In this document: piece after piece, positions 7,266-21,219 of the stretch | Position numbering within the stretch: the stretch's first letter is position 1 | How the letters are laid out: every line of letters begins with the position of its first letter | DNA from: a virus | Virus record (IMG/VR): IMGVR_UViG_3300037109_000097 | Span: 1-21,410 of that record | DNA: 21,410 nucleotides | Strand: one strand, 5' to 3' | Notes under the pieces: model-generated | What the model was told of the DNA's origin: nothing | Databases searched by the model: none | The model's input: only the letters and a program-made list of their open reading frames with translations | Program-made: the position numbers and the translations under genes

Positions 7266-9287
7266 CTATGAGTTGCAGCGAACTCCAGCCTTGGGGTCCT
7301 GAAGGCCGGCGCCGAAGTCGTGATAGCCGCGGAACTGGACGCCAAGGGCGTTGAAGTCCGCGCTGCTGGTCTCGATGGTCGGGATGTCACGGCCGTTGAG
7401 GAAGGCTATCTCTATCGCTGCCAGGTCCAGAGGATCGGCCAGCAGATACCAGCTCGTGGCCGAATTCCCGGTCATCGAGGCGTTGTCGAGATAGGCACTG
7501 ACCACCGGTTCGTACTTGCCCGCCTGGACGTTGGTGGTGCCAATTTCCTTGCTGGCGGTGGTGTCTCGCATCTCCGTGCTCTTGTATATCTGGTTGGCCA
7601 GGGCCTCCAGGGCGCTGGGGACGACCAGGTATTTCGGCGTGGCGCCGACGAGCTTGTTGTTCTGATCGACCATCTGGCGGAACAGTGCGACGGCGGCGCC
7701 GAGTTTACTGATGGAAAGCGCGCTTGAGGTGGCCAGGTTCTTGTTGCCGGCGGTGAAGAAGCCGGTGTTGGCCAGGAAAATGGTCCAGAAGACCTCGTTG
7801 ACGGTCAGGGCGCCGCTGCGGCCAAGACGCTGTGGAACGGCGGAGAGTGCACCAAGGTCGTCGTTGATGAGGTCCTGACGTGTCAGGGCCAGCATCAGTG
7901 CGTAGGTGTCAACCTTATTGGTGAAGCTCTCGTTGCCGAGGGTGCCGTGCTTTATCTCGCCGCCGGCGCCTACCTTCTGATAGCTGCCGGTAGAGGTGAG
8001 GCGGTAGCTGGTCATCGTCTTGAAATCGCGTGCGTTGCGAACGCCGGCGATCTTGCGCCAACTCTGCTCGACGCTGGTGAAGCCAGCGAGCAGGAATTTG
8101 TTGGCGATATTCGAGAGGATACCGCCAATATCGACTGTCGAGAAGGCGCCTTGTATATGGCCGGGGAAGGCGGCGCGGAGCATTGGCTCCAGGTCGCGTG
8201 CTCGGCCGGTATATCCGCTGTTGATCTGCGCAGCAGCGAGTATCGCCTCGCCAATACCGATGCTGCCGCGGAAGGCGCGATGAGCAGCCTCCAGTGTCGC
8301 GGTCGGGTAATGCTTTTCCACCTCCGGCAGGCGGCAAGTCTGAGCCAGTGCCGCCTCGATGATCCCGCCATCGATGCCGCCTTCGCGGAGGATGGTGTTG
8401 TGGGCCTTCGGGCGGGAGGCACGCAGGACCTCCAACTCGGCCTTTTCAGGCGACCACTTTTCAGTGATGGCCCTGGCCTGAATGTCAACGGTGATGCCGG
8501 AGATCGCCATGATGGCGGACTGCCTCCGGAGTTCCGCGCCTGCCTCGATGGCAAGTTTGTCGGCGACCGAGGTGGCGGAGGCGGCGAGCACCTGTTTTTC
8601 GGGCTCGGCGACGGCCGAGGCAGCCTGTACTTGGGGTTCGGGGGTTTCGGCCGCGGCGACCGGTTCGCCCGGTTTTGCTTGTTTCTTGTCCATGATTGTC
8701 TCCTGTATTGATGACGTTGCGGCGACCGAGACGGTGGTTTGTGTGTCGGCGCCTATATCTACAAAACTCAGTTCGCCCAGCGTGGCCGCTTTGACCACTG
8801 TTACCGGGCCGGAAAATGTCTGACCATTGACTATGACCTGCGCCCCGGCGTCGATGAACTCTCGACGCTGCACGCTGGCGCCGATGCTCATCTGCCAGGG
8901 AAAGCCGTTCTTGCCGCTCTGTGTGACGTCTTGCGCAGAGGGTGTGACGCGGGAAATGATGCCGGAACACCTAAGCTCGTTATCCGCCACCGTGATGCCG
9001 GTGGTGTGACCTACGCCCAGTAAGGAATCATGCTGCAGACGAACGGGAAGATTCTGCTTTGGAACTGACAGTCCGGCCAGATCCACGACGCATGGATATG
9101 ACCAGCCGGCCAGGATCATCAGCCCGCCGGTATAGCCGACACCCTTGAAGGTCGGAAGCGACTGCTTGCCGCCATCCGCGGCGGCGATGGTCCATTCGAT
9201 CGGCACGGCGTCGAAATGCAGCCCGGCCAGTATCTCAGGTTCGGCGGCGGCGGCTTCAAGCCGCCTGTTTGTTCGGGTTTTGTTCAT
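7266..9287 (-). CDS. Prohead protease / major capsid protein fusion
   Basis: The product is 673 residues, starting at ATG 9287 inside the end of the portal gene with GGAG upstream. Residues 1 to about 190 form a prohead protease of the HK97/U35 type. The likely catalytic His is H86 in RLQHDSLLGVG and the likely Ser is S134 in WQMSIGASV, followed by the conserved AATLGELSFVDIGAD. Residues about 199-250 are Ala, Glu and Pro-rich, like a scaffold or delta domain. The rest resembles Mu gpT-type major head proteins (NIANKFLLAGF, FKTMTSYRL, GEIKHGTLGNE, ALTRQDLINDDLGAL). Such fusions are known in phages. An in-frame ATG at 8693 (residue 199) has its own strong AGGAGA site, so a separate 475-residue capsid product is likely. 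Confidence 0.88.
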   Translation of the reverse strand: MNKTRTNRRLEAAAAEPEILAGLHFDAVPIEWTIAAADGGKQSLPTFKGVGYTGGLMILAGWSYPCVVDLAGLSVPKQNLPVRLQHDSLLGVGHTTGITVADNELRCSGIISRVTPSAQDVTQSGKNGFPWQMSIGASVQRREFIDAGAQVIVNGQTFSGPVTVVKAATLGELSFVDIGADTQTTVSVAATSSIQETIMDKKQAKPGEPVAAAETPEPQVQAASAVAEPEKQVLAASATSVADKLAIEAGAELRRQSAIMAISGITVDIQARAITEKWSPEKAELEVLRASRPKAHNTILREGGIDGGIIEAALAQTCRLPEVEKHYPTATLEAAHRAFRGSIGIGEAILAAAQINSGYTGRARDLEPMLRAAFPGHIQGAFSTVDIGGILSNIANKFLLAGFTSVEQSWRKIAGVRNARDFKTMTSYRLTSTGSYQKVGAGGEIKHGTLGNESFTNKVDTYALMLALTRQDLINDDLGALSAVPQRLGRSGALTVNEVFWTIFLANTGFFTAGNKNLATSSALSISKLGAAVALFRQMVDQNNKLVGATPKYLVVPSALEALANQIYKSTEMRDTTASKEIGTTNVQAGKYEPVVSAYLDNASMTGNSATSWYLLADPLDLAAIEIAFLNGRDIPTIETSSADFNALGVQFRGYHDFGAGLQDPKAGVRCNS
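8691..8704 (-). promoter_or_regulatory. Internal ribosome binding site and start for the capsid part
   Basis: On the minus strand the sequence AGGAGACAATC is followed directly by an in-frame ATG (8693-8691), with ideal Shine-Dalgarno spacing. It encodes MDKKQAK at the protease/capsid boundary. This would give a free capsid subunit in excess of the protease fusion. Confidence 0.6.
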
Positions 9288-10731
9288 CTATCGGCGGCTC
9301 CGTTTTGGTTTTCTTGACCAGGTCGGCGGGTTCCAGCCCCAGTTGCTTCATCACCGCTTTTTCAGAGGCGATCTGCTGGAACTCTTCCTGCCAGTCGAGG
9401 CCCTTCTTGGCGTATTCGCGACCGTATGAGGTCATAAGATTCTGCAACTGCATCGATTGTGCCGTCGCTTCTTTTTCAGGGTCAACGTGCTCGGTCCCGT
9501 CGAACATCCACTGGCGGACCTGGGGGAATTCGATCTCCTCTTCCATAGCCAGCGATGCCTCCTGACAGAACGACCGGAGTATCGGATTGAGCACCTCTTC
9601 CTCAATGCTGCTTCGCTCGACGGTGATGCTCTTGTAATAGGTCTGATGGTCCATGCGACCGCTGGCGTAGTTGTAACTACTGCTGTTGCAGGCGGCGATG
9701 TTGTACGGCATGTTGACGCAGCGTGCTATCTCGTTGACGATCTCATGCTTGAACATGACATAGGTGGTCGTCGGCTGCTCGGGTTTGACCTGGTAGGGCT
9801 TCCACCCTTCCGGGACGCTGGTCATGGTGTTGCGAGGCAGGTCGAATTCGACCATAGGAGCGACATCGGCAGCCCCATCCGGCGGATTGTCGGTCGTCAG
9901 GAAAGCAGACATATTCGCCGCGCTCTCCGCCGAATCGAGCACCGCCAGGGTATATCTTCGCAGTTGTGCAAAAAGAGGCAGTGCCGAAACTATCTCGGGA
10001 ATGCCTCGTATCTGGCCGGGGCGGTCCTTGCGGAACCAGTGAATGACAAATCGGGCGGGAACTTTGTCGTACATGACCTTATCAAAGCCCAGCATACCCA
10101 GAGAGCCAGGGTGCTGCTTAAGAATGTAATACATGGCGGGGTTGCCATATTCGTCAAATTCGATGCCGCTCCAGACCCCTGCGCCGAGTTTTACGTTAAG
10201 GAACAGTCCGGCGTCAACCTGGTCGGCCTCGATGAGCTTCATGTTAAGTTTAATGCGGCTGGTGAGTTTTGGGTTGGTGACGAAGAGGGCGAACGCCTCG
10301 CCATCCTGAACCTTGCTTTTTCGCATCAGCCGCAGTTTTGCGGCAAGGTGGATCTCGTCGGCCCAGGCGTTGAATTCTTTTTCCAGGTCGAAGGCGTTGC
10401 TGCTCTTTATGCGACCCGAGGCGGTTGTGCCCGTCGCGCCGGAGAGTTGCAGACGCACGCCGGTGCCGACACAATCGTTGGCCAACGTCTCGATGATGCC
10501 ACGGGCGATGGAGTTGTTCTCGACCTCATAACGGCAGCGACTCCGCAATATCTGGCGCGTGGCGGGAAGAGCGGCTATCTCCGCACTGAGCAGGTCGGCA
10601 TTGGCCCAGTGGTTGCGATTATCGGGGGTAGTCTGGGCAGCATCGTATCTGGCGCGGATTGTGCGCTCGACGCCGCCCGGGCGGGCAGGAGCCGCACTGG
10701 AACTAAACAAACCAAAAGGCCAGAATCTCAT
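9256..10731 (-). CDS. Portal protein, lambda gpB family
   Basis: The product is 491 residues. ATG 10731 is chosen because it forms an ATGA overlap with the gpW-like gene and has GGGAG upstream; an open frame continues to 10797. It forms the dodecameric portal ring through which DNA is packaged and ejected. Family features are an N-terminal arginine-rich stretch (VERTIRARYDAAQTT), the block NNSIARGIIETLANDCVGTG, then DGEAFALFV, an EADQVD motif, FVIHWFRKDRPGQIRGIPEI, and a C-terminal ASGRMDHQTYYKSITVERSS. The order W-portal-protease/capsid is that of lambda-like heads. It overlaps the protease gene by 32 bases. Confidence 0.92.
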   Translation of the reverse strand: MRFWPFGLFSSSAAPARPGGVERTIRARYDAAQTTPDNRNHWANADLLSAEIAALPATRQILRSRCRYEVENNSIARGIIETLANDCVGTGVRLQLSGATGTTASGRIKSSNAFDLEKEFNAWADEIHLAAKLRLMRKSKVQDGEAFALFVTNPKLTSRIKLNMKLIEADQVDAGLFLNVKLGAGVWSGIEFDEYGNPAMYYILKQHPGSLGMLGFDKVMYDKVPARFVIHWFRKDRPGQIRGIPEIVSALPLFAQLRRYTLAVLDSAESAANMSAFLTTDNPPDGAADVAPMVEFDLPRNTMTSVPEGWKPYQVKPEQPTTTYVMFKHEIVNEIARCVNMPYNIAACNSSSYNYASGRMDHQTYYKSITVERSSIEEEVLNPILRSFCQEASLAMEEEIEFPQVRQWMFDGTEHVDPEKEATAQSMQLQNLMTSYGREYAKKGLDWQEEFQQIASEKAVMKQLGLEPADLVKKTKTEPPIDEQNPNKQAA

Positions 10732-10925
10732 ACCGCTCCCGGAGGAATAATTTTGGCCCGGCGAAGCGCGGCAAAGGGATTGCTGACAACAGAGCACTTG
10801 CGAGCGTACTTATCCGCCTCGATCTGCTGTGTGATGTCGTGCTGCGTGACGGTCTGACCGTCTACGGTAGCCGTCTTGGGGGCAAGCGAGTTGTTAGCGA
10901 TAGCCTGCGAGTTGTCAGTTGCCAT
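10728..10925 (-). CDS. gpW-like head-tail joining protein
   Basis: The product is 65 residues. ATG 10925 (MATDNSQAIANN) is chosen for its AAGGA site nine bases upstream; in-frame ATGs at 10931 and 10940 are alternatives. The sequence has a TVDGQTVTQHDITQQIEADK segment typical of the small gpW-like proteins encoded just before portal genes, and ends RAKIIPPGAV. Its TGA overlaps the portal start as ATGA. By analogy with lambda gpW it would join the head after packaging, though the C-terminal half differs from classical gpW. Position supports the assignment more than sequence does. Confidence 0.65.
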   Translation of the reverse strand: MATDNSQAIANNSLAPKTATVDGQTVTQHDITQQIEADKYARKCSVVSNPFAALRRAKIIPPGAV

Positions 10926-11010
10926 ATACATCCTTGTCAAAACAAAATCAATCTGTCTAGTTATAGCCTACAGAACTATTACAAGCAGTCAATGGGCTAT
11001 TGGCGTTTTC

Positions 11011-11042
11011 GGCAAAACAGTGCTACCGGTAGCACTTTTGCC
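11011..11042. repeat. Long perfect palindrome between packaging and head genes
   Basis: The core 11019-11036 is an 18-base perfect palindrome (AGTGCTACCGGTAGCACT). It is flanked by GGCAAA and TTTGCC, which extend the pairing with only a two-base bulge. There is no loop and no long T-run, so it is a poor standard terminator in either direction. It lies in the roughly 175-base gap (10926-11100) between the zinc-ribbon gene and the gpW-like gene. It could be an operator or a processing hairpin. Confidence 0.7.
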
Positions 11043-11100
11043 AAAGATTCCTGGAAGATTTCATCACAGATGTCACAAAAAACACGAAGGGCAAGATAAG

Positions 11101-11292
11101 TCAGGGCTTCGGGGCACCCTCATAGGTAGTGATAACTTTGCCGCAATTGCGGCAGAGGCGGTAGCGTTTTATTCTTCCATCGGGTAAGGGGATCGTGTTG
11201 CGGACGCGAAAGTCGCAGCAGCCGCATTTCCAGCAGCTAGGACCATTTGCCGGGGCATCCGGCGGGTATTTCTGACGCTCGCTGTCGCTCAT
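11101..11292 (-). CDS. NrdR/Ogr-like zinc-ribbon protein
   Basis: The product is 63 residues, from ATG 11292, which overlaps the terminase stop as ATGA. A longer frame to 11451 lies inside the terminase gene and is not supported. It has two cysteine pairs, C20-x2-C23 and C47-x2-C50, spaced like a zinc ribbon. The segment RIKRYRLCRNCGKVITTYE closely resembles the zinc ribbon of the NrdR repressor (RRR.C..CG.RFTTYE). Only the ribbon is present, without the NrdR ATP-cone. It may be a small DNA-binding late regulator, comparable in position and size to phage Ogr/Delta proteins, or a packaging accessory factor. The biochemical role is inferred. Confidence 0.7.
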   Translation of the reverse strand: MSDSERQKYPPDAPANGPSCWKCGCCDFRVRNTIPLPDGRIKRYRLCRNCGKVITTYEGAPKP

Positions 11293-13535
11293 CCTGTCCT
11301 CCTTGCAAAATCGGCCTGGGTGTATTTCTTGCGCGGCCGGCGTGCAACCACCTGGCCTGTGATGTTGCATCCGCACATCGAGGCGGCAACGCAGCAGCCG
11401 ACCAGACAGTCGAACCAGTGGTTGTCGGGACCGGTCGGTTTGGGCGACCATTGGTAGACGGTGCGGCCGTGGCCCTCGGTTTTCACGCAGAACTCAGAGC
11501 CGGCAACATGCTCGGCAAACAATCTGTGCTGGCTGGGGCTTTTGCCGAACAGCGTGATACTGCCGCGATCACCGCCTGCTGTCTGGAACCGCTCATGGGC
11601 AAACGACTTCCAGTAATTTGTGTCAATCGCCACGTGCGGAAACTCGTTTGTCCTGTTTACATTGGGCATATACCAGTTCTGGCCATACCGCTCGCCGGCT
11701 TTGCGCCGGTAGGTGCTCATGGGCTTGTTCGATGCCCTGATGCCGACGCCCTTCGAGGCTGTGATGGCGGAGGCGCCCAGCTTGTGCCGCACATTTTCGA
11801 CGATCCCAGGCATATATCCGCAGTCGATGAACAGACGATCTATGTGCATCGCCGCCCCGCCGGAGCGTTTGAACTCCCTGCCAAGCAAATCCCGGCATAA
11901 AGCTTCAAGTCCCGCCTGGATTGCGCCCTCTTTCTCGGTGCCAGGCGCGGCACTTTGAAGGGTCCTCTGTGCCTTTCGAAGCGTAAACTGCAGGCGTTTC
12001 TGGTCGGGATATGTGCCATAATCGACGACATAGCCCGTAAAGTCCTCCTCCCAGCCGCAGATCACATAGAAGAGCAGCTTGTCATGTACGTCAATAAACG
12101 CGGTCAGGTACTGTGATCGAAGCGGAGGCTCGCCGCGACCGCGGCCGCTGGTCTTTTCGGCAACCTCCTGGGGCGTAAGTACATCCTCATCGGACTGCTG
12201 CGAGATTGGATCGTTCTGATATTCCGCAAAGAAGGCCGCCTCATCCCGGTACATCAGATTCATGGCATGCTGGATGGCGGAGATCTCATCTTCGTTATGG
12301 CGAGCACTCCACGCAGCTATTGAACCGGCATCCATATCAGGGCGGTTCTTCTCATAGAACTCGGTCGCCTCTTTGCCACCATTGCCAGAGCGGAGGCTGT
12401 CCGCACGGATCTGTGAATATTCATCCCACAGTTTGGTATTGGAGGGGAAGGCATATACCATGCGGGTGCACTCCCCCTGCCACTCCGGGTTCTTATCCTT
12501 ATCGAGAATCTGGTCGGCCAGGTCGCCATCATAGATCTTGGTACATGTCAAAAGGCCGGAGATTTTCTTACCGGGGCCTGCCATGCCGAGCACATCACCG
12601 CTCAAGGTACTTAGTCTCTGGGCAGTCTGCTCCGCCGAACGTGCCGATTCCCGCGTCTGCGGGTCGTCGACGAGCACCAGATCAGGCCGAATGATCCTGC
12701 CATCGATTGTCGTATGCGACTGGCCTCGGATATTGCTGTCGAGACTATCGACCGTGATCACGGAACCAGAGGCGATGCTGCCCGGAATAGAAGGAATCAC
12801 GATCTTGTGTATTCCCCAGGTCGGATAGGTAAGGCTACCCTGATACCGCTGACCACGCTGTTTGTGAGCGGAGTTTTCAAGGCACTGGATCGGATAGACC
12901 ACCTCCGGGAAATCAACCAGCAATAAATCGTTACCCAGCAGCGCCGCCTGAACGCTCTGGAACAGATTTGCCGACTGGCGGGTTGCACTTCCGATGAGGC
13001 AGACGTATTTCCGGCTGCCAATGAGAACTGCCCATATCGCAGCCGAGCGGGTCAGTGCCGATTTACCGCTGCCGCGAGGCATGGCAAATGCAAAGAGGCC
13101 GCCATGCAGGACCGACTGCTCTATCTTGGAGATCACCCGCAAATGGTCGTCCGACCACGGCAGGTAGAAGACATCGGGGAAATACGTCTCGCAGAAGAAC
13201 CGGAAGTCCTGGCAGGCCCGCTCTCTTCGCTGGGGATTCTCAACCTCCGGCATCGCACCGATGTCCTGGGCCTCCTTGCGCGCAGCGTTCTTTGCGATGA
13301 GGTCTTTGACGCGGGACTCCTCGACCGAAAGTTTGGGCGAGCGGGGTTTTTCAAGCTCACGGGCCAGCCATGAAACATACCTCACCATATTGATGTGTTT
13401 ACCATCGCCGATGCGGTATGCGGCAACGTCCATCTGCCTCCGCAGTTTGGGCCGGTCCAGCACCACGCCAAGCGGGGTGTGGTTGATGAGCTGCAAAAAC
13501 TCCGATTGCGAGAGGTTGTTTACATCAATCGCCAT
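11289..13535 (-). CDS. Terminase large subunit
   Basis: The product is 748 residues, from ATG 13535 with AGGA about eight bases upstream. It pumps and cuts phage DNA. The ATPase part has Walker A MPRGSGKS (152-159) and Walker B LVLVDD (286-291), followed by a likely coupling motif near SGLLTCTKIYDGD. The C-terminal nuclease has candidate acidic residues at D482 (FIDVHD), D571 (RLFIDCGYM) and in DNHWFDCLVG near residue 720. The first 60 residues (ending INMVRYVSWLARELE) resemble the DNA-binding domain of the small terminase encoded just upstream, which is not usual. At 748 residues it is longer than most large terminases, in keeping with the added domain. It overlaps the small terminase by 11 bases. 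Confidence 0.92.
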   Translation of the reverse strand: MAIDVNNLSQSEFLQLINHTPLGVVLDRPKLRRQMDVAAYRIGDGKHINMVRYVSWLARELEKPRSPKLSVEESRVKDLIAKNAARKEAQDIGAMPEVENPQRRERACQDFRFFCETYFPDVFYLPWSDDHLRVISKIEQSVLHGGLFAFAMPRGSGKSALTRSAAIWAVLIGSRKYVCLIGSATRQSANLFQSVQAALLGNDLLLVDFPEVVYPIQCLENSAHKQRGQRYQGSLTYPTWGIHKIVIPSIPGSIASGSVITVDSLDSNIRGQSHTTIDGRIIRPDLVLVDDPQTRESARSAEQTAQRLSTLSGDVLGMAGPGKKISGLLTCTKIYDGDLADQILDKDKNPEWQGECTRMVYAFPSNTKLWDEYSQIRADSLRSGNGGKEATEFYEKNRPDMDAGSIAAWSARHNEDEISAIQHAMNLMYRDEAAFFAEYQNDPISQQSDEDVLTPQEVAEKTSGRGRGEPPLRSQYLTAFIDVHDKLLFYVICGWEEDFTGYVVDYGTYPDQKRLQFTLRKAQRTLQSAAPGTEKEGAIQAGLEALCRDLLGREFKRSGGAAMHIDRLFIDCGYMPGIVENVRHKLGASAITASKGVGIRASNKPMSTYRRKAGERYGQNWYMPNVNRTNEFPHVAIDTNYWKSFAHERFQTAGGDRGSITLFGKSPSQHRLFAEHVAGSEFCVKTEGHGRTVYQWSPKPTGPDNHWFDCLVGCCVAASMCGCNITGQVVARRPRKKYTQADFARRTG

Positions 13536-13731
13536 GCGTAATCCTGGTATTTAACCACGCCCCGTAATGGATAAGATTAATGGACCCATCCGCCGCAGTC
13601 GGGGCACCTTCCCCTATATGTTTGCGGAGGATTTCCAGGGGTAATCCAAGCAACTTTGCAGCCATTTCCGGAGTAAGAGAAGCGGGATTTAGCGGCTGTT
13701 TTTCGGGGTTATTGGGCATATTTGGGGCCAC
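13525..13731 (-). CDS. Probable small terminase, Nu1-like winged helix
   Basis: The product is up to 68 residues. The longest start is GTG 13731 and an in-frame ATG lies at 13719; neither has a clear ribosome site, so the start is uncertain. The sequence LTPEMAAKLLGLPLEILRKH followed by GAPTAADGSINLIHYGAWLN is a compact winged helix of the Nu1/MerR type. Small terminases use such a fold to recognise the packaging site. It immediately precedes and overlaps the large terminase, which fits. It is short for a small terminase and lacks an obvious oligomerisation coiled coil; the similar domain at the large subunit's N-terminus may compensate. Confidence 0.65.
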   Translation of the reverse strand: MAPNMPNNPEKQPLNPASLTPEMAAKLLGLPLEILRKHIGEGAPTAADGSINLIHYGAWLNTRITHGD

Positions 13732-13774
13732 ATAAAAATTGTCATAAATACTTGAAAATAATGGACTTAGCGAG

Positions 13775-13802
13775 TTGCATAGATGTTTTTCAATGGTATA
13801 GT
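13775..13802 (+). promoter_or_regulatory. Candidate promoter of the plus-strand small-gene cassette
   Basis: TTGCAT (13775-13780) and TATAGT (13797-13802) are separated by 16 bases in an AT-rich divergent region between the small terminase and the first plus-strand gene. The site resembles a sigma-70-type promoter, and transcription would start about 40 bases before ATG 13851. The assignment is by eye only. Confidence 0.4.
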
Positions 13803-13850
13803 ATGTATAGAAAAAGACATAAAAGCCTTAAACCTTGAAAGGGAAAAAAG

Positions 13851-14102
13851 ATGAAAAACGAAACACAAAAAAGCGACACGACCACCCAGACCGCCAAACG
13901 CCATGCAGCCTACGACCAGGCAAGGGCGGACATAGCCAACCTGCTCGGATGGATGGAATGCGAATTGACGAAAGAGACCGACAGGACCTGGGGCCAGGTT
14001 GCAAATCTCAGCAAGGTACGGAGCGACCTGATTGATACCCTGGCATTTTTCAGCAACAGCGAGCCGGAACAAATCAAAGAGGCGATGGAAGACGCCCGCT
14101 AA
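13851..14102 (+). CDS. Small unknown protein, paralog A
   Basis: This is an 83-residue protein with AAAGGG about nine bases before ATG 13851. I do not recognise a function. It is helical and charged: an N-terminal Thr/Gln/Lys-rich tail, then ARADIANLLGWMECELTKET, then LSKVRSDLIDTLAFFSNSEP, then EQIKEAMEDAR. It aligns along its length with the next gene (ARTDIANLMRLLESELGERT, LQRLRRDLIETLSEFSGRST, CEIEDATQNAR), so the two are tandem duplicates. No zinc, membrane or catalytic motif is seen. It is the first gene of the only plus-strand block in the window, and a role in counter-defence or host takeover is speculative. Confidence 0.75.
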   Translation: MKNETQKSDTTTQTAKRHAAYDQARADIANLLGWMECELTKETDRTWGQVANLSKVRSDLIDTLAFFSNSEPEQIKEAMEDAR

Positions 14103-14143
14103 CCAAACAGACACAACCAGCATATCGAAAGGCAAAAAGATGA
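14100..14143 (+). repeat. Repeated intergenic leader, copy 1
   Basis: From the stop codon of one gene to the start codon of the next, this stretch closely resembles 14628-14670. Shared parts include TAACCA, ACAACCAGCA, CGAAAGG and AAAAAGATGA. The two copies precede unrelated genes. Confidence 0.7.
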
Positions 14144-14367
14144 GACTACCAAAAGGATACAAAGAAACGAGCACCAAGAACGCCCGCACCGACATCGCCA
14201 ACCTGATGAGGCTCCTCGAAAGCGAGCTGGGCGAGCGGACCGAAAAAACAGACTGGCTCGAGGTTAAAGAATTGCAACGCCTCCGCAGGGATCTCATCGA
14301 AACACTTAGCGAGTTTTCCGGCAGATCAACCTGCGAGATAGAAGACGCCACACAAAACGCTCGATAG
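14140..14367 (+). CDS. Small unknown protein, paralog B
   Basis: The product is 75 residues, from ATG 14140 with GAAAGG upstream. An open frame reaching back to 14032 lies inside paralog A and is not used. It is a diverged copy of the preceding gene. Shared positions include AR.DIANL, a conserved ESEL/ECEL segment, the LRRDLIETL/VRSDLIDTL helix and the final DA..AR. The N-terminal tail (MRLPKGYKETSTKN) differs. Two predicted helices separated by a short linker suggest a helical hairpin that could dimerise with paralog A. Function unknown. Confidence 0.75.
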   Translation: MRLPKGYKETSTKNARTDIANLMRLLESELGERTEKTDWLEVKELQRLRRDLIETLSEFSGRSTCEIEDATQNAR

Positions 14368-14393
14368 TAAACTTTTTTCAAAGGATACCAGCC

Positions 14394-14630
14394 ATGAAAA
14401 ACGCAGAAAACAAAACCACGACATCGAAATATCCCAAAATAGACGCATACTACAGCAAGCGAGAGGCGATCGAAGCAGCCAGCAAGCAGCCTGGTGCAAA
14501 GGCGATCACGATGGAAGGCCGGGCCTACGTTGTGCATCAGGACTACATCGATGCCCTGAACGCCGGCGGAGCAGAGTTCGCATATATCTGCGACCACGAA
14601 GGGCGCATCGTAACGGTTCCCGCGAAATAA
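14394..14630 (+). CDS. Small unknown protein
   Basis: This is a 78-residue protein from ATG 14394, with AAAGGA upstream. I do not recognise the family. It has a Lys/Thr-rich N-terminus, then YSKREAIEAASKQPGAKAIT, then a strand-like MEGRAYVVHQDYIDALNAGG and a C-terminal EFAYICDHEGRIVTVPAK. The alternating helices and strands suggest a small alpha/beta fold. There is no signal peptide or membrane segment. It lies in the middle of the small-gene cassette, 26 bases after paralog B, and is probably co-transcribed with it. Confidence 0.7.
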   Translation: MKNAENKTTTSKYPKIDAYYSKREAIEAASKQPGAKAITMEGRAYVVHQDYIDALNAGGAEFAYICDHEGRIVTVPAK

Positions 14631-14670
14631 CCAGATAGAAACAACCAGCAAGCCGAAAGGAAAAAGATGA
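14628..14670 (+). repeat. Repeated intergenic leader, copy 2
   Basis: This is the partner of the leader at 14100-14143. It again runs from a TAA stop to the next ATG and contains the ribosome site GAAAGG. Confidence 0.7.
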
Positions 14671-14825
14671 AGATCATAATCACAAAAGGAAAGCTCAAAG
14701 GCACACGCGGCAAGGTTGTCGGAGTCTACATGGACGGACGGTTCGACATAGACGTCACCAACCGAAAACCAAACCAGCCAAAACAAAGAATTGTCAAAAT
14801 AAGCGATTGTCAGGAAGTCAGATAA
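14667..14825 (+). CDS. 52-residue KOW/SH3-like protein
   Basis: This is a small gene of 52 codons plus stop, with GAAAGGA about six bases before ATG 14667. The sequence KGKLKGTRGKVVGVYMDGRF followed by DIDV and a C-terminal RIVKISDCQEV has the shape of a KOW motif or small SH3-like barrel (G.LKG.RGKV..V). KOW domains bind RNA polymerase, ribosomes or nucleic acid, but at this size the match is only suggestive. The product is very basic. Its start lies inside the repeated leader and its stop is 12 bases before the next ATG. A role as a small nucleic-acid or polymerase binding protein is inference. Confidence 0.65.
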   Translation: MKIIITKGKLKGTRGKVVGVYMDGRFDIDVTNRKPNQPKQRIVKISDCQEVR

Positions 14826-14837
14826 GAAAGGCAAACC

Positions 14838-15098
14838 ATGAAGGTAACACGAGTCGAGATCAAAGGACGAACCGGAACAGCAGCCATCAGCCGCGAATCG
14901 GAAAATGAAGTTGAATGTATCTTTTGTGAAATCCGCAACCCCGCTGGCGAGCGGGTTGCAATCCACCACGCAGATGTAAACGATCGGGATGATCAATTCT
15001 CGATGGCCCAGGGCGTCCAGGGCCAGCTCGACGGATACATCGGCACCAACAGCGAGATTAATGAAGTTTTCAATTACATCACTCTTTTTGCAGATTAA
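14838..15098 (+). CDS. Small unknown protein
   Basis: This is an 86-residue protein from ATG 14838, with AGAAAGG upstream. I do not recognise it. The N-terminal half is beta-rich (MKVTRVEIKGRTGTAAISRE) and includes a Cys pair in ECIFCEIRNPAGER, which might bind metal but lacks a second pair. The C-terminal half is acidic and partly helical (DVNDRDDQFSMAQGVQGQLD then EINEVFNYITLF). The acidity in the second half recalls DNA-mimic or partner-binding proteins, but this is weak. It lies between the KOW-like and HARE-HTH genes of the same cassette. Confidence 0.7.
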   Translation: MKVTRVEIKGRTGTAAISRESENEVECIFCEIRNPAGERVAIHHADVNDRDDQFSMAQGVQGQLDGYIGTNSEINEVFNYITLFAD

Positions 15099-15131
15099 AC
15101 CAATAACTATTTTTTTGAAAGGACCAGAACC

Positions 15132-15602
15132 ATGAAGAAAGCAGACATCAAGATCAGCGGCATCTACGCCGTGAAAATCGGCAGGAATACCGTGGGTATT
15201 CGCATCATGCGCCAGAACCAGGACGGGCACTGGGTTGGCATCAACGTCAAGACCAACAAAGAGGTCATCATCAAGTCCGCCGACCGGCTCTGCGGAGTGT
15301 ACCACGCCAAACGCGGCAAGGCGGCAAAGGACCAGGAGACGGCCGCAACCGCCAAGAAGGAACGCGCCACAGCCAAGCCTGGCGGCTTGAATGGGGCGGT
15401 ACGGGTCCTCGAGGAGGCCGGCAACGGCCCGCTCGGGTGCTTGGAGATGGTCAAGCAGATGCTCGAAAAGGGATACTGGAAGACGGGGGGCAAGACCCCT
15501 GCCGCCACGATCTACAGCGCCATCATCCGCGAGATCAAGGTAAAGGGAGCCGCCTCCCGGTTCCGCAAGACCGAGCGGGGCAAGTTCGAACTGGCCAAGT
15601 AG
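15132..15602 (+). CDS. HARE-HTH domain protein
   Basis: The product is 156 residues, from ATG 15132 with GAAAGGA upstream. Residues 1 to about 55 form a small beta domain (KISGIYAVKIGRNTVGIRIM) that may be SH3-like. A basic Ala/Lys linker follows at about 58-82. Residues about 83-156 match the HARE-HTH winged helix: LNGAVRVLEEA, CLEMVKQMLEKGYWKTGGKT, PAATIYSAIIREI and a final RFRKTERGKFEL. HARE-HTH domains occur in RNA polymerase delta subunits, ASXL proteins and restriction or modification-linked proteins, where DNA binding is proposed. It is the last gene of the cassette and converges on a DNA methyltransferase gene eight bases away. Confidence 0.8.
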   Translation: MKKADIKISGIYAVKIGRNTVGIRIMRQNQDGHWVGINVKTNKEVIIKSADRLCGVYHAKRGKAAKDQETAATAKKERATAKPGGLNGAVRVLEEAGNGPLGCLEMVKQMLEKGYWKTGGKTPAATIYSAIIREIKVKGAASRFRKTERGKFELAK

Positions 15603-15610
15603 AGCGACCA

Positions 15611-16834
15611 TCATCTCTTCTCCACATCAACCCCGGCCGGTGCCGGGGTTTTCTCGTTGGACAGAACCGCCTTTTTGCCAGTGAACTTTGACCACCTTTC
15701 AGTGATAACATCGCAGTACACCGGGTCAATTTCCATGCCATAGCACCTGCGTCCGACCTGCTCACAGGCGATGAGCGTGCTGCCGGAGCCGAGGAAGCCA
15801 TCAAAAATGATTGCCCCTGGCGATGAACTGTTCGTTATGCCCTTTATGCACAACTCAACGGGTTTCATGGTCGGGTGGAGCTTTGAGTTCAGCGGCCGGT
15901 TTATCTCCCAGACCTCTGTCTGGGTTCGGTCCTCGCCAAATGTGCTCTTGCCAAACCAGCCGTAAAAGCAAGGCTCGTACATTCGCTGATACTTTGCCGG
16001 GCTTAGAACTAGCTGCTGCTTCTTCCAGATAATCGTTGCCGACCAGTGGCACCCCATCTCGGTCAGCCACAACCGCATCCTCATCCCTTCGGGGCCGGAG
16101 GCACCCCACATGTAAATATCGCCGGTGTTAAATTCCTGGAATATCTCATACATCTTGTGGCAAAAGATGCTCCAATCCTCCGACGACATGGAATCGTTTT
16201 CGATTGACCTGATTTTATGGCGTGGGTTCTTCGACGCGCCGTAATCGACGTTATAAGGCGGGTCGGTAAAGATCATGTCCGATGTGGCCCCATCCATCAG
16301 GCAGCATACATCTTCCCTGTGCGTACTGTCGCCGCACAAGAGCCGGTGGTTGCCCAGGAGCCAAAGGTCGCCGGGCTTGGTGATAGCCTCGGCGGGAGGA
16401 TCGGGCACTTCATCCGGGTCGGTCAGACCTTCGGCAACCGCCTGCTCGAGAATCCGCCTGAGTTCTCCTTCGCTAAAGCCCAGTAAATCGAGGTCAAACT
16501 CCATGCCCTGGAGGTCTTTGAGTTCGATAGGCAGCAGGTCATAGTTCCAGTCCGCTATGGTGGCCGTCTGGTTGTCGGCGATACGGTATGCTTTTATCTG
16601 CGCCTCGGTCAGGTCTTTAGCCATATGGACGGGCACTTTATCGAGGCCAAGTTTCTGGGCGGCCTTGTAGCGGGTATGGCCGACGATAATGATGCCATCC
16701 TTATCGACCACAATCGGCTGGCGGAACCCGAACTCCCGCAAACTGGCCGCCACAGCATCGACCGCCTTGTCGTTAATGCGGGGGTTGTTTTCATAAGGGC
16801 GGATTCCGGTAATGGCTCGTAATTCAATTTTCAT
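15611..16834 (-). CDS. ParB-domain / DNA methyltransferase fusion (beta-class amino MTase)
   Basis: The product is 407 residues, from ATG 16834 with GGAG ten bases upstream. Residues 1 to about 95 form a ParB/sulfiredoxin-like domain with the VGHTRYKAA motif. Residues about 150-390 form an N6-adenine or N4-cytosine methyltransferase: CGDST (168-172), DPPY (191-194), HPTMKP (320-325) and the AdoMet-binding FDGFLGSGST (344-353). DPPY before FxGxG places it in the beta class. Such ParB-MTase fusions are common in phages. They may protect DNA from host restriction or mark the packaging or replication region. No restriction enzyme is present. Its 3' end contains the terminator of the convergent cassette. 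Confidence 0.93.
   Translation of the reverse strand: MKIELRAITGIRPYENNPRINDKAVDAVAASLREFGFRQPIVVDKDGIIIVGHTRYKAAQKLGLDKVPVHMAKDLTEAQIKAYRIADNQTATIADWNYDLLPIELKDLQGMEFDLDLLGFSEGELRRILEQAVAEGLTDPDEVPDPPAEAITKPGDLWLLGNHRLLCGDSTHREDVCCLMDGATSDMIFTDPPYNVDYGASKNPRHKIRSIENDSMSSEDWSIFCHKMYEIFQEFNTGDIYMWGASGPEGMRMRLWLTEMGCHWSATIIWKKQQLVLSPAKYQRMYEPCFYGWFGKSTFGEDRTQTEVWEINRPLNSKLHPTMKPVELCIKGITNSSSPGAIIFDGFLGSGSTLIACEQVGRRCYGMEIDPVYCDVITERWSKFTGKKAVLSNEKTPAPAGVDVEKR
15630..15656 (+). terminator. Rho-independent terminator of the small-gene cassette
   Basis: A perfect 8-bp stem ACCCCGGC / GCCGGGGT with a four-base loop is followed by TTTTCT. It acts for the plus strand, 28 bases after the HARE-HTH stop, and is embedded in the 3' coding end of the opposing methyltransferase gene. 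Confidence 0.8.
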
Positions 16835-16880
16835 ATCGCAAAAGCTCCTACGTCAAAACGTTTTCACATCCGAACAATGC

Positions 16881-16960
16881 CCTCACAGGCCCCGACAATG
16901 CCCAACAGGCCCTCACAGGCCCCAATAATGCCTCACAAGACCTCACAGGACCCGACAATG
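16881..16960. repeat. Tandem 30-base repeats built of 10-base blocks
   Basis: CCTCACAGG recurs at 16881, 16911 and 16941, exactly 30 bases apart. Each copy is followed by CCCgAcAATG-type blocks at 16891, 16921 and 16951, with degenerate blocks CCCAACAGG (16901) and CCTCACAAG (16931) filling the third slot. All blocks are in 10-base register. Confidence 0.85.
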
Positions 16961-17106
16961 CCGTTTTTCTTTCTAAAAACGCCATTTTTCGGTCCATCTA
17001 AAAAATGTTCACTTCCGACCGAATGTCTTATTGGGGGCGATTGTTCCCGATGGGGGCTCCGCCTGATTTGGCGTCGGGAGGACCCGCTCGGGTTGCCATG
17101 TCGCTC

Positions 17107-17187
17107 CACGTTGGCTCACGTTGCGAGATGTCACTTGATTCGCCCAAACACCCGCATTGATATTTCGTTTGAACGTGTGCGAACGTG
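17107..17187. repeat. Paired, inverted AACGTG sites in helical phase
   Basis: CACGTT occurs at 17107-17112 and 17117-17122, and its reverse complement AACGTG at 17172-17177 and 17182-17187. The second pair lies in a perfect tandem 10-mer (GAACGTGTGC twice, 17171-17190). Each pair is spaced by one helical turn. Confidence 0.75.
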
Positions 17188-17214
17188 TGCGATCACTGCG
17201 CAATGTAGTTTTGG

Positions 17215-17586
17215 TTATCTTGCACATGCGACGCTTTCCTTTGTGGGTTCTTTAATGCCCGCTCTTACCAATATTTCATCTGCCTCTTCAATTGACTTCT
17301 GGCGAGCCAGGTCGGAAGGACGTCGGTGCTTGCGTGGCAAGTGAACATCACTGGAGAACTGTTTGACCTTATCAGCATCAGCAAGCGATACAAAAAATCT
17401 GTTCAATGCCTCAGAGCTGGTTGCGATCTTTTGCCCGACGCGGACATATTCAAGGTTAATGCCGCGAAGTCCTTTCTTGCACCACCGCCACAGGGTTGAA
17501 ACATTCATCCGTTTGCCATTCACTCGCGGCAACATCTTGGTCGCTTCGGTCAATGTTATGAGTTGTTCATCCATCGAAATCGACAT
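17215..17586 (-). CDS. DUF1580-like helix-turn-helix protein
   Basis: The product is 123 residues, from ATG 17586, whose A is shared with the primase stop (TAATG). An in-frame ATG four codons later is an alternative. The sequence LITLTEATKMLPRVNGKRMN, then STLWRWCKKGLRGINLEYVR, then SSEALNRFFVSL is an excisionase/MerR-type winged helix. It fits the DUF1580 family that I know mainly from planctomycetes. The C-terminal helix with IEEADEILVRAGI is also typical of that group. It is the last gene of the replication operon and abuts the repeat-rich region 16835-17214, which it might bind as regulator, origin-binding protein or excisionase. No integrase is visible to support the excisionase reading. 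Confidence 0.8.
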   Translation of the reverse strand: MSISMDEQLITLTEATKMLPRVNGKRMNVSTLWRWCKKGLRGINLEYVRVGQKIATSSEALNRFFVSLADADKVKQFSSDVHLPRKHRRPSDLARQKSIEEADEILVRAGIKEPTKESVACAR

Positions 17587-19328
17587 TAGTTTTCTTTCTT
17601 GATTATCAAACCGAGTTCTTTAAGGGTGAGTTGTTCGGAATTAAATTCACACGCTATTGACATCCCATGGCCCTTGCCGTTTCTGGCCTTGAGTATGTGG
17701 ACTGTTCTGTTATGGCTATCTTCTGCAGTGCCGCAGGCGGTTTTTATCTTGCTCTCTTTATCTTTATGGCTGTGCAGCCAGAGAATTGCCTGTGCAAATC
17801 GACTGTACGCCGCTGATCCGGCCATTGCTGATAAGTCAGGCTTGTTTAATGTCTTGGCGGGATGAGTTACCAATACAAACGAGCATCTATTATCAGTAGC
17901 AACGCGTTTAATCCGCTGTAGGAATGCACTGTCTTCAATCCAGGGTTTGGCGGTCTGCACTGCGGCGGTAACAGGGTCTATACAGATTATCCTATATCCT
18001 GCAGCGGCTCTGTCTTCTGACCATTTTGCTAACTGATCAAGAGTAAGCTGGTTGTCAGGGCAGGCCCACATATTACGGCCTATGGTGTCAATAAACTGTT
18101 TGTGTTCTGTGAGTGTCTGCCGTGCCTGCTGCGGGTTTGCCTTGACCCAGTCCATACGGGTGACATCAGCATTGCCGGACCGCTGAGCCAAAGCCCTCAT
18201 CAAGTGAAATTCTCTATCCTCCTCAAGTTCATAAATGCAGGATTTGACGCCGTTATCAAGCCAGTAGCAAATAGCCTGAATCAACATAAAGCTTTTTGAT
18301 GCACCAGGACTTCCGCAAATCAGCGTGACCGTTCCGGGAATTATCGCATTTGTAAGATGAGAAAGACTTGTCCAGGGCAAAGGCACGGATTCAAGTTTGC
18401 CTTCGATAATTTCCTCTATCCGCTCGGATACTCGTGCAGCTATTCCTTTCGGCTTTGCCTGCTGGATAACCCTATAAAGTTCATTATTGACATCTATGCC
18501 AACCGTTTTGAGCTGCTCGATATAATCCGCAGCGTCTTCGCTTTCCTCAAGATCGAGGTCTGCCGGTTCTATGGCTGAAATTCTAACGGCAGGTTCAAGT
18601 TTTTGCAGGATTGCCTCAACCTGCATCATGTGCTTTCGTCCTGTCGCGTCATTATCAGGCCAGATGATTACATTTTTGCCAGCCAGTATATTCCAGTCTG
18701 CGTATTCGGCCTTACCTGCCCCGGCTGGACTTGTAGTGGCAGTTATGCCGCCGCTGTGAAGAGCATGAACACATTTTTCGCCCTCGACGATAACAACCGT
18801 ATCAGCATTTAAGATTCGCCCGCGATTGTAGAGTGGCCACGGTTTTTCCGGTGCTTTCATCTCAAAACCGCCGCTGCACGGCCGCGCCTGCCTAAAGGTT
18901 TTGCCCTCGGCAGTTTGACTGCGCACAACGATCATGTCCGGCTGTTGTGTTTGCGGGTTGGTATATGTATAAACCGCCTCGACCGTTCCCGGACAAGCAG
19001 CTTTCAAATCGTCAACTGCGGCAAAAACTCTGCCTGGGCTGCTTGGCGTAGTATGCGGTTTCCTCGTTTCGCTGCTAACTGCCTTCAATAGTTCGGATAC
19101 TTCTTTGCCTTCGTTGCGGGCCTGAATATCCCAGACATCACCGGAAACACCACAGGCTTGGCACTTAAACCGCCAGTTACCACCATCATCCTGGTAAATG
19201 CCGGCACTTGGCGTGCGATCATCGTGGAACGGACAGTTGCAGCTATTATTGTGAAATTTGGCTCCAGCTTTGACGAGTTCATCAATGAGCGGCTGCCTGT
19301 CTTTTTTTCTGATTTCAATGATATTCAA
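17586..19328 (-). CDS. Primase-helicase: CHC2 zinc finger, Toprim and RecA-like domains
   Basis: The product is 580 residues, from ATG 19328, which overlaps the upstream gene by four bases. A zinc finger at about residues 30-59 has C30, C32, H35, C56 and C59 as likely ligands. A Toprim domain follows, with VEGEK (181-185) and WPDND (223-227) for primer synthesis. After a linker comes a RecA/DnaB-like ATPase with Walker A GSPGASKS (339-346), an acidic strand YELEED, Walker B IICIDP (446-451) and FVLVTHPAK. The layout is like T7 gp4 and many phage replication proteins. It would unwind DNA and prime lagging-strand synthesis. The replication initiator lies upstream and a DUF1580-type protein downstream. 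Confidence 0.93.
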   Translation of the reverse strand: MNIIEIRKKDRQPLIDELVKAGAKFHNNSCNCPFHDDRTPSAGIYQDDGGNWRFKCQACGVSGDVWDIQARNEGKEVSELLKAVSSETRKPHTTPSSPGRVFAAVDDLKAACPGTVEAVYTYTNPQTQQPDMIVVRSQTAEGKTFRQARPCSGGFEMKAPEKPWPLYNRGRILNADTVVIVEGEKCVHALHSGGITATTSPAGAGKAEYADWNILAGKNVIIWPDNDATGRKHMMQVEAILQKLEPAVRISAIEPADLDLEESEDAADYIEQLKTVGIDVNNELYRVIQQAKPKGIAARVSERIEEIIEGKLESVPLPWTSLSHLTNAIIPGTVTLICGSPGASKSFMLIQAICYWLDNGVKSCIYELEEDREFHLMRALAQRSGNADVTRMDWVKANPQQARQTLTEHKQFIDTIGRNMWACPDNQLTLDQLAKWSEDRAAAGYRIICIDPVTAAVQTAKPWIEDSAFLQRIKRVATDNRCSFVLVTHPAKTLNKPDLSAMAGSAAYSRFAQAILWLHSHKDKESKIKTACGTAEDSHNRTVHILKARNGKGHGMSIACEFNSEQLTLKELGLIIKKEN

Positions 19329-20431: not shown

Positions 20432-20458
20432 AAAAAAATTAGCCTTCAGCGATAGGCT
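20432..20458 (-). terminator. Rho-independent terminator after the metalloprotease gene
   Basis: On the minus strand AGCCT / AGGCT pairs across an eight-base loop and is followed by AATTTTTTT. The stop codon of the metalloprotease gene lies in the loop. The stem is short but the T-run is good. It separates the regulator/protease pair from the early operon. Confidence 0.55.
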
Positions 20459-21219
20459 GATAGTGTGGCCTCCACCAGTTGGCCGATAGTTCTGACATCG
20501 CTTCCAATGTCAAACGGTTTACCCCAGTCAAATCCGTTCGGATCGATGAAGACAGGCGATACCTGATAAGACAACGCCTCTGCGGAAAGCCCCCCAAAAT
20601 AGGGTTGAATCACCTTTGCAGTAAGCCATGCTAGGTTCTGGGGAGTCGTCGCATATACCCGCCTGTTGCCGATAAAGTAGTGCCCTGGTCCGATGAAACG
20701 GATTCTTCGGTCGGTTCCGAACACACGGGTCCCGATAACGCGGATATAGCTCTGTGGAGCGGCTACGTTGCTGGCAAAGAGGTTGGCTTGGCGTTCAAAT
20801 GTGTTCTCCCAGAGCCTAATACTCTCCTGTGTGGTAAACAACTTCGGGTGCTTGCGAAGGTTCTTACGCAGATAACGGCCCTGCAAGACTCCATGACCAA
20901 CTACCTCATGCCAGCATGTGAAGACCTTGCGCGGGTCATTGCCTTCAACAAGGACCCGGCTTATCCGAGCCACATTCTCCTTTGGCAGAAACTGGCCAAG
21001 AATCTGGATGCCGTCATCGTCCAAACCCAAGTCGCAGGCAATATCCATGGCTATCTCATACTGCGGGTAGATAATGGCATCATAGATTTCGTCAAACCGT
21101 ATTCCGTTGGCAATCAAATAGTCCGCCCCAAACTTGTTAACAACCGTCTTGAAGAACGTGTGGGCAAGCTCCCGGACTCGGTTTTCGGACATCGGCATTG
21201 GCGCTGGTAGCTGATACAT
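20446..21219 (-). CDS. ImmA/IrrE-like metalloprotease with an HExxxH motif
   Basis: The product is 257 residues, from ATG 21219 with AAGGGT upstream, three bases after the XRE regulator stop. The putative zinc site is CWHEVVGHG (H104, E105, H109), one residue longer than the usual HExxH, followed by FERQANLFASNVAAP (about 141-155). That segment has the E..AN.FA.....P pattern of the third ligand helix in ImmA/IrrE proteases. ImmA partners cleave XRE repressors to induce phage or mobile elements, and the direct XRE neighbour supports this. The inserted residue recalls the HELLGH motif of M49 peptidases and may alter geometry or activity. No membrane segment is seen. The C-terminal 90 residues are not recognised. 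Confidence 0.7.
   Translation of the reverse strand: MYQLPAPMPMSENRVRELAHTFFKTVVNKFGADYLIANGIRFDEIYDAIIYPQYEIAMDIACDLGLDDDGIQILGQFLPKENVARISRVLVEGNDPRKVFTCWHEVVGHGVLQGRYLRKNLRKHPKLFTTQESIRLWENTFERQANLFASNVAAPQSYIRVIGTRVFGTDRRIRFIGPGHYFIGNRRVYATTPQNLAWLTAKVIQPYFGGLSAEALSYQVSPVFIDPNGFDWGKPFDIGSDVRTIGQLVEATLSAYR

Follow-up and report, generated by a model that had tools for sequence, protein, structure and literature searches.

What is a block of six small genes doing on the plus strand of a virus genome whose other main genes run the opposite way, and how might transcripts arriving from the other side get past it? The question arises in a 21,410-base virus DNA (IMG/VR record IMGVR_UViG_3300037109_000097, positions 1 to 21,410; the window), in which this cassette faces the remaining main genes on the minus strand. 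A sequence-only reading had taken the cassette for a candidate accessory or counter-defence module and missed that its start coordinate, 13767, is the end of a 615-codon minus-strand open reading frame (ORF) lying over the whole cassette. We find that the cassette is one version of an island occurring in temperate phages and prophages of Planctomycetota and that, in most of these phages, such an island is opposed by a minus-strand frame that is open beyond chance, kept so by one gene register, avoidance of the codons TTA, CTA and TCA, and in-phase spacers. The island itself combines a fixed place and a fixed opposing orientation with a near-fixed gene for a HARE-HTH protein (HARE), fast-changing small cargo and an island-specific promoter-like motif. 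Phage morons are accessory genes equipped with a promoter and a terminator of their own, and the sequences lead us to favour, with modest confidence, an explanation in which a moron-like island is crossed by a translated pass-through frame, by which antisense methyltransferase-to-terminase transcripts would escape polarity. The features on which the argument turns are the following:

13767 to 15614, minus strand: antisense pass-through ORF of 615 codons (the lane), whose ATG (15614-15612) overlaps the methyltransferase TGA (ATGA)
15611 to 16834, minus strand: ParB-like DNA methyltransferase, right neighbour of the island (phrog_498, E=3.3e-137)
13525 to 13731, minus strand: putative small terminase subunit (terS), left neighbour, called by its position beside terL and its conservation in relatives
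11289 to 13535, minus strand: large terminase subunit (terL), matching annotated large terminases and used as the anchor for finding relatives

The lane of the window holds its terminal stop only, and the other two minus-strand frames have 20 and 29 stops; it ends 35-47 nt before terS, depending on the choice of terS start. For terS, no named Pfam family was found and PHROGs gave an unnamed family only. Relatives were found through TerL, which has hundreds of them in viral contigs and genomes, the genomes being almost all Planctomycetota, finished chromosomes included. The first set comprised 89 dereplicated loci spanning TerS to the methyltransferase, and the replication set comprised 62 newly fetched loci unlike the first set, for which models and thresholds were fixed beforehand; genes in the loci were picked by codon log-odds. 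Mapping the window proteins on the loci returned a single layout, with terL and terS on the minus strand, an opposing plus-strand island and the ParB-like methyltransferase gene on the minus strand. HARE was present on the plus strand in 82 of 89 loci and in 61 of the 62 replication loci, and it never lay on the minus strand there in the 89-locus set.

Fully open islands numbered 44 of 57, where 6.3 were expected from the phage's own codon usage, 1.4 from that usage with random spacer phases and 4.9 from native codons with random phases; 5.7% of matched late-region control windows were fully open. The replication set agreed, with 21 of 32 islands fully open compared with 10.7% of control windows. 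Read in register on the antisense strand, TTA, CTA and TCA would be the only sense codons giving stops, and both leucine and serine have alternatives. A lane could therefore be opened without protein change in one register, whereas the other two would cost amino-acid changes, so that island genes would be expected to share one phase. The codons are indeed scarce in in-register island genes (25 of 45,227, against 931 of 94,898 in control genes of the same phages; p=8e-122, and p=6e-72 for the depletion in the replication loci); these p-values ignore shared ancestry, and the effect is seen in AT-rich and GC-rich groups and in many unrelated cargo sets. In HARE alone, where the sense strand is certain, 6 of 1,493 leucine and serine codons are TTA, CTA or TCA, compared with 7.4% in TerL. 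Of 357 neighbouring gene pairs in islands, 290 (81%) have a common frame, as do 239 of 314 (76%) in the replication set. Genes that stand out of register have 4 such codons in 332 in their own register and 0 in 337 in the lane register. The HARE gene of locus L028, which lies on the genome strand, was tried as a control and proved unusable, as that phage hardly uses TTA, CTA or TCA anywhere.

These tests bear directly on whether the open frame is simply a by-product of the base composition or codon preference of island genes. GC-rich genes often carry long antisense ORFs, codon shuffling within genes keeps the frame open in many GC-rich islands, and matched control windows are themselves fully open at the rates given above (5.7-10.7%). 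Depletion is, however, strongest in AT-rich loci: in the ten loci below 50% G+C, island genes contain 0 of the three codons in 2,254, compared with 2.7% in controls, and AT-rich islands use neither TTA for leucine nor TCA for serine, against 149 and 149 occurrences in controls. Codon avoidance also leaves unexplained the shared frames (81% and 76%), the in-phase spacers and a lane that stays open through an out-of-register gene bearing CTA and TCA. We give this explanation almost no credence, and composition with codon avoidance as the sole cause of the open frame is rejected by the codon, register and openness tests.

Lanes elsewhere can be far longer than that of the window. Locus L065 has a 2,392-codon ORF antisense to 14 genes, and in L350 the antisense strand of 16 genes is open across 7.4 kb. 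The prophage locus L117, from the cultured strain Planctomycetales bacterium ZRK34, has an open lane too. In 29 of 54 cases the lane stops no more than 20 nt from the start of terS, and in 37 of 54 it occupies the frame overlapping the methyltransferase stop, the remainder using another frame. Counting stops solely in the frame fixed by the ATGA overlap was discarded as too strict, since only those 37 of 54 open frames use it.

The plus strand carries the genes, as judged from Pfam families with relatives elsewhere, ribosome sites and third-position differences, all of which fall on that strand. In the HARE family and in two further families of the cassette (D and A, listed below), differences are highest at plus-strand third codon positions, pointing to selection as proteins. 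These positions are the first ones of lane codons, so that the antisense peptide varies freely. The alternative that the antisense ORF encodes a functional protein overprinted on the island draws on its placement, like that of an operon gene, between the methyltransferase stop and the terS start, on HARE fourfold sites slightly more conserved than those of TerL, and on BLAST matches among the lane products of related islands. Such matches are nevertheless expected from shared plus-strand genes, the products run from 267 to 2,356 codons with a sequence dictated by the opposing cargo, and lane first positions vary most; we regard overprinting as improbable. The lane product probably has no function of its own, its sequence being set by the cargo.

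Our leaning, a slight one, is instead that the lane is a content-free pass-through ORF, in which openness alone is selected and the peptide is irrelevant, and along which ribosomes escort the main-operon transcript and couple the methyltransferase gene to terS. Transcription of the main minus-strand operon would proceed from the replication genes and the methyltransferase gene, antisense across the island, into terS and the late or structural genes, and 1-7 kb of untranslated antisense RNA would meet Rho termination and decay. Ribosomes finishing the methyltransferase would re-start on the lane and translate to terS, keeping the operon continuous while cargo swaps; because the lane ends near the terS start, they would be delivered to terS. 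Because the cassette terminator falls in the 3' end of the methyltransferase gene, which is translated, ribosomes on the minus-strand transcript would also stop its hairpin from folding. With the main operon switched off, possibly in the prophage or early in infection, the island would be expressed from its own promoters. Regulation of the island or of RNA polymerase is the probable role of the HARE protein. We infer translation of the lane, and its purpose, from the patterns of openness described here.

Several points weigh against this explanation. A single frame covers 90% of the interval in just 74 of 142 loci across both sets (91 of 142 with chained ORFs counted, against 11 in the control), and interruptions are frequent in the large islands of Pirellulales, which means that an unbroken lane is dispensable to some of these phages. 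Given the right frame, chance alone will often produce an ATGA or GTGA at a TGA stop, which makes the start position by itself weak evidence. Transcription of the main operon across the island is assumed, and a separate terS promoter could lie in the divergent region. Finally, HARE fourfold sites diverge slightly less than those of TerL (0.50/0.64, 0.36/0.43 and 0.56/0.58), which leaves room for weak selection on the lane peptide.

The island opposite the lane turns over quickly. Across the 89 loci, interval genes make up 99 families, of which 55 are singletons, with a median gene length of 92 amino acids, and overlap of cargo families (Jaccard) averages 0.12 between loci whose TerL proteins are 70-79% identical, being low except among the closest relatives. 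Gene content at this site thus varies among related phages, which supports the accessory site proposed by the sequence-only reading, and the relatives do not share a fixed content with virion roles. The proposal stands in part only: the island is not purely accessory, because HARE is nearly fixed. Among plus-strand cargo, recognised domains include Fic, amidoligase, DUF6900 and DUF4314, and minus-strand genes within the interval include Mom (L015) and DUF1937 (L126). The Mom DNA-modification gene of L015 (3611-4414, plus strand of its contig; PF25680, E=3e-41) lies between HARE and the methyltransferase gene, on the genome strand. By sequence, Mom, Fic and amidoligase genes in the relatives' intervals fit a host-interaction role without proving one.

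Departures from the layout were also recorded. In four of the seven loci lacking HARE (L006, L040, L098 and L100), the site is filled by a minus-strand gene of ~470 codons that is radical-SAM-like by look. Locus L028 carries HARE and D genes downstream of terL on the genome strand (10710-12545, plus), and another gene occupies the usual site. On the contig of locus L069, a second methyltransferase and HARE pair lies downstream of the portal gene (14695-17978) and may belong to another prophage joined to the first. Seven planctomycete genomes contain one or two copies each of the full-length HARE protein, and a few extra copies match the HARE part alone. Co-inheritance of HARE, D and A with TerL is not claimed, their identities tracking TerL identity weakly (Spearman 0.1-0.2).

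Islands carry a distinguishing promoter-like motif, TTGATG-N17-TGG-CTCAATGTG, which had also escaped the sequence-only reading. It sits before the first gene of the island and, in large islands, before many single genes, and is almost absent elsewhere. A matrix trained on the terS-side sites alone (consensus TTGATGT....GC.AA..CATGGCT..ATGTG) picked up another 69 plus-strand copies within islands, with 0 on the opposite strand and 0 within coding sequence; outside islands there were 11 copies in about 1.08 Mb, both strands counted. From the motif end to the next start the median distance is 46 nt. The replication loci gave 88 copies inside islands and 5 outside. Three Pirellulales prophages (L134, L142 and L152) have large islands with the motif before many single genes and a broken antisense frame. 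Conserved sequence is present in the divergent terS/island region of the relatives, and the control elements of the window, whose cassette forms one compact operon, are these:

13743 to 13778, no strand assigned: conserved block of the divergent terS/island control region (20.6 bits, against a null maximum of 9.9; alignment of close relatives)
13775 to 13802, plus strand: candidate cassette promoter, extended -10 type (TTGCAT, 16 nt ending TGG, TATAGT), in the same place as the relatives' motif
15629 to 15650, plus strand: candidate intrinsic terminator of the cassette (9-pair stem, 7 of them G-C, then TTTTCTCGTT)

The sequence-only reading had given the cassette its own promoter candidate and a strong terminator. 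A plain sigma-70 scan of the window found no promoter; the extended -10 candidate lies beside the block conserved in relatives and resembles the island motif, although by itself it is not significant with the general matrix. The terminator was recovered as a 9-pair stem inside the 3' end of the methyltransferase gene, and the hairpin scan overall gave no excess over shuffled DNA. The six co-directional genes were likewise borne out (13851-15602, 52-156 codons), each having an ATG start and a GAAAGG-type ribosome site:

13851 to 14102, plus strand: A1, 83 amino acids, first of two paralogues; three helices predicted, function unassigned
14140 to 14367, plus strand: A2, 75 amino acids, A1 paralogue and sole cassette gene out of the antisense-lane register
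14394 to 14630, plus strand: B, 78 amino acids, with relatives in L024 and L138; function unassigned
14667 to 14825, plus strand: KOW-like protein, 52 amino acids, sub-threshold KOW match; family of 10 loci
14838 to 15098, plus strand: D, 86 amino acids, four strands and two helices predicted; 44 non-redundant relatives
15132 to 15602, plus strand: HARE-HTH protein, 156 amino acids, with a conserved N-terminal domain and a C-terminal HARE-HTH domain; island core gene

The two genes read earlier as duplicates are diverged paralogues (36% identity in the family alignment) of a family seen in about 30 loci. A1 is in the lane register and contains no TTA, CTA or TCA; A2 contains one CTA and one TCA in its own register and zero stops in the lane register. 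The HARE-HTH assignment is secure (PF05066, E=2e-12, 47.7 bits against a cut-off of 25.9), the domain being matched in 47 of 47 relatives, and the conserved N-terminal domain of the protein belongs to no Pfam family. The KOW-like call fared less well, as a match exists but falls below the Pfam cut-off (E=0.012, 15.9 against 22.3 bits). AlphaFold2 gave confident models of A1 and D (mean predicted local distance difference test scores 88.9 and 92.5). A fold search with the A1 model returned no match, and one with the D model returned nothing significant, its weak PUR-alpha-like matches (probability up to 0.96, E about 0.2) supporting no claim of function. PDB sequence searches and Rfam yielded nothing, and in an annotated phage collection A1 and D had no relatives, while the HARE protein had a single partial match.

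Could the cassette be a counter-defence module like an anti-CRISPR (acr) locus, with HARE as a self-repressing regulator of the anti-CRISPR-associated (Aca) kind? As in acr-aca loci, small variable genes stand beside a conserved DNA-binding-domain gene (HARE, in 82/89 and 61/62 loci) that is last in the window operon (PMC7648647), and a Mom gene in one related interval and Fic and amidoligase cargo point the same way. Unlike in those loci, the HARE-HTH protein belongs to no known Aca family and no known Acr was found; HARE is not last in many islands; and the cassette genes matched no defence or counter-defence family in Pfam, PHROGs, NCBIfam or PADLOC, none of which is a dedicated Acr library. 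Counter-defence is possible for individual cargo genes, none of the window's genes being tied to it by sequence, and for the cassette as a whole we entertain it tentatively, by analogy. It does not conflict with a pass-through frame.

HARE is a winged helix found too in the RNA polymerase delta subunit of Firmicutes, and the gene is near-fixed, close to terS and next to a conserved divergent control block. It might therefore act as a late-transcription switch at the divergent terS/island region, the island being a regulatory module and not accessory cargo. This seems unlikely to us, given that 7 of 89 loci have no HARE at the site, that L028 has it elsewhere and that changing cargo is left unexplained.

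Set beside known systems, the explanation we favour, a moron-like island crossed by a translated frame, has partial parallels. Judged from sequence features, the island resembles morons in its promoter-like motif, terminator-like hairpin, opposing orientation and variable presence among related phages, and differs from them in its fixed place, near-fixed HARE core and open antisense frame across a multi-gene set. Antitermination by lambda N is another phage answer to Rho polarity. Like P4 Psu (PMC11718236), the lane would let transcripts cross a Rho-terminable stretch; in contrast to P4 Psu and lambda N, it is proposed to do this by being translated as an open frame and not by way of a protein that targets Rho or RNA polymerase. 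Antisense overlapping genes of Escherichia coli O157:H7 each lie across a single gene, and protein products are proposed for them (PMC9927249, PMC7103648). The lane is, like them, an open frame antisense to real genes, but a single lane can cover as many as 16 unrelated, exchangeable genes, remaining open despite content change. In cluster K mycobacteriophages, start-associated sequences lie 3-7 bp from the start codon and overlap the ribosome site (PMC3203893). The island motif is similarly short, in one orientation and repeated before many small non-structural genes, whereas it ends ~46 nt upstream of the start, is promoter-like and is confined to the island.

Elsewhere in the window, a 257-amino-acid protein (20446-21219, minus strand) has an HEVVGH zinc-peptidase-like motif and a weak CapP match (PADLOC E=5e-5), and is possibly an ImmA/IrrE-like peptidase near a lysogeny region. 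A DUF1580 protein (17215-17586, minus strand; PF07618, E=5.6e-10) has similarly placed relatives in L024 and L032. A single 673-amino-acid ORF (7266-9287, minus strand) looks as though it combines a prohead protease with a major capsid protein in a single chain.

A search of the open-access literature found no description of such a pass-through frame, absence there being no proof of novelty. If our explanation is true, a natural phage offers a cheap, direct test of translation shielding antisense transcripts from Rho. It would also mean that synonymous codons and spacer lengths are selected in a way of which we found no example in the open-access literature searched. For annotation, gene callers may report the giant minus-strand ORF and miss the real genes, and the HARE-HTH gene with its repeated promoter-like motif may serve as a marker for host-interaction genes in Planctomycetota phages. 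Incoming cargo would have to fit, or be tuned to, one frame, losing three codons, and whole multi-gene islands would evolve under a constraint read on the other strand alone.

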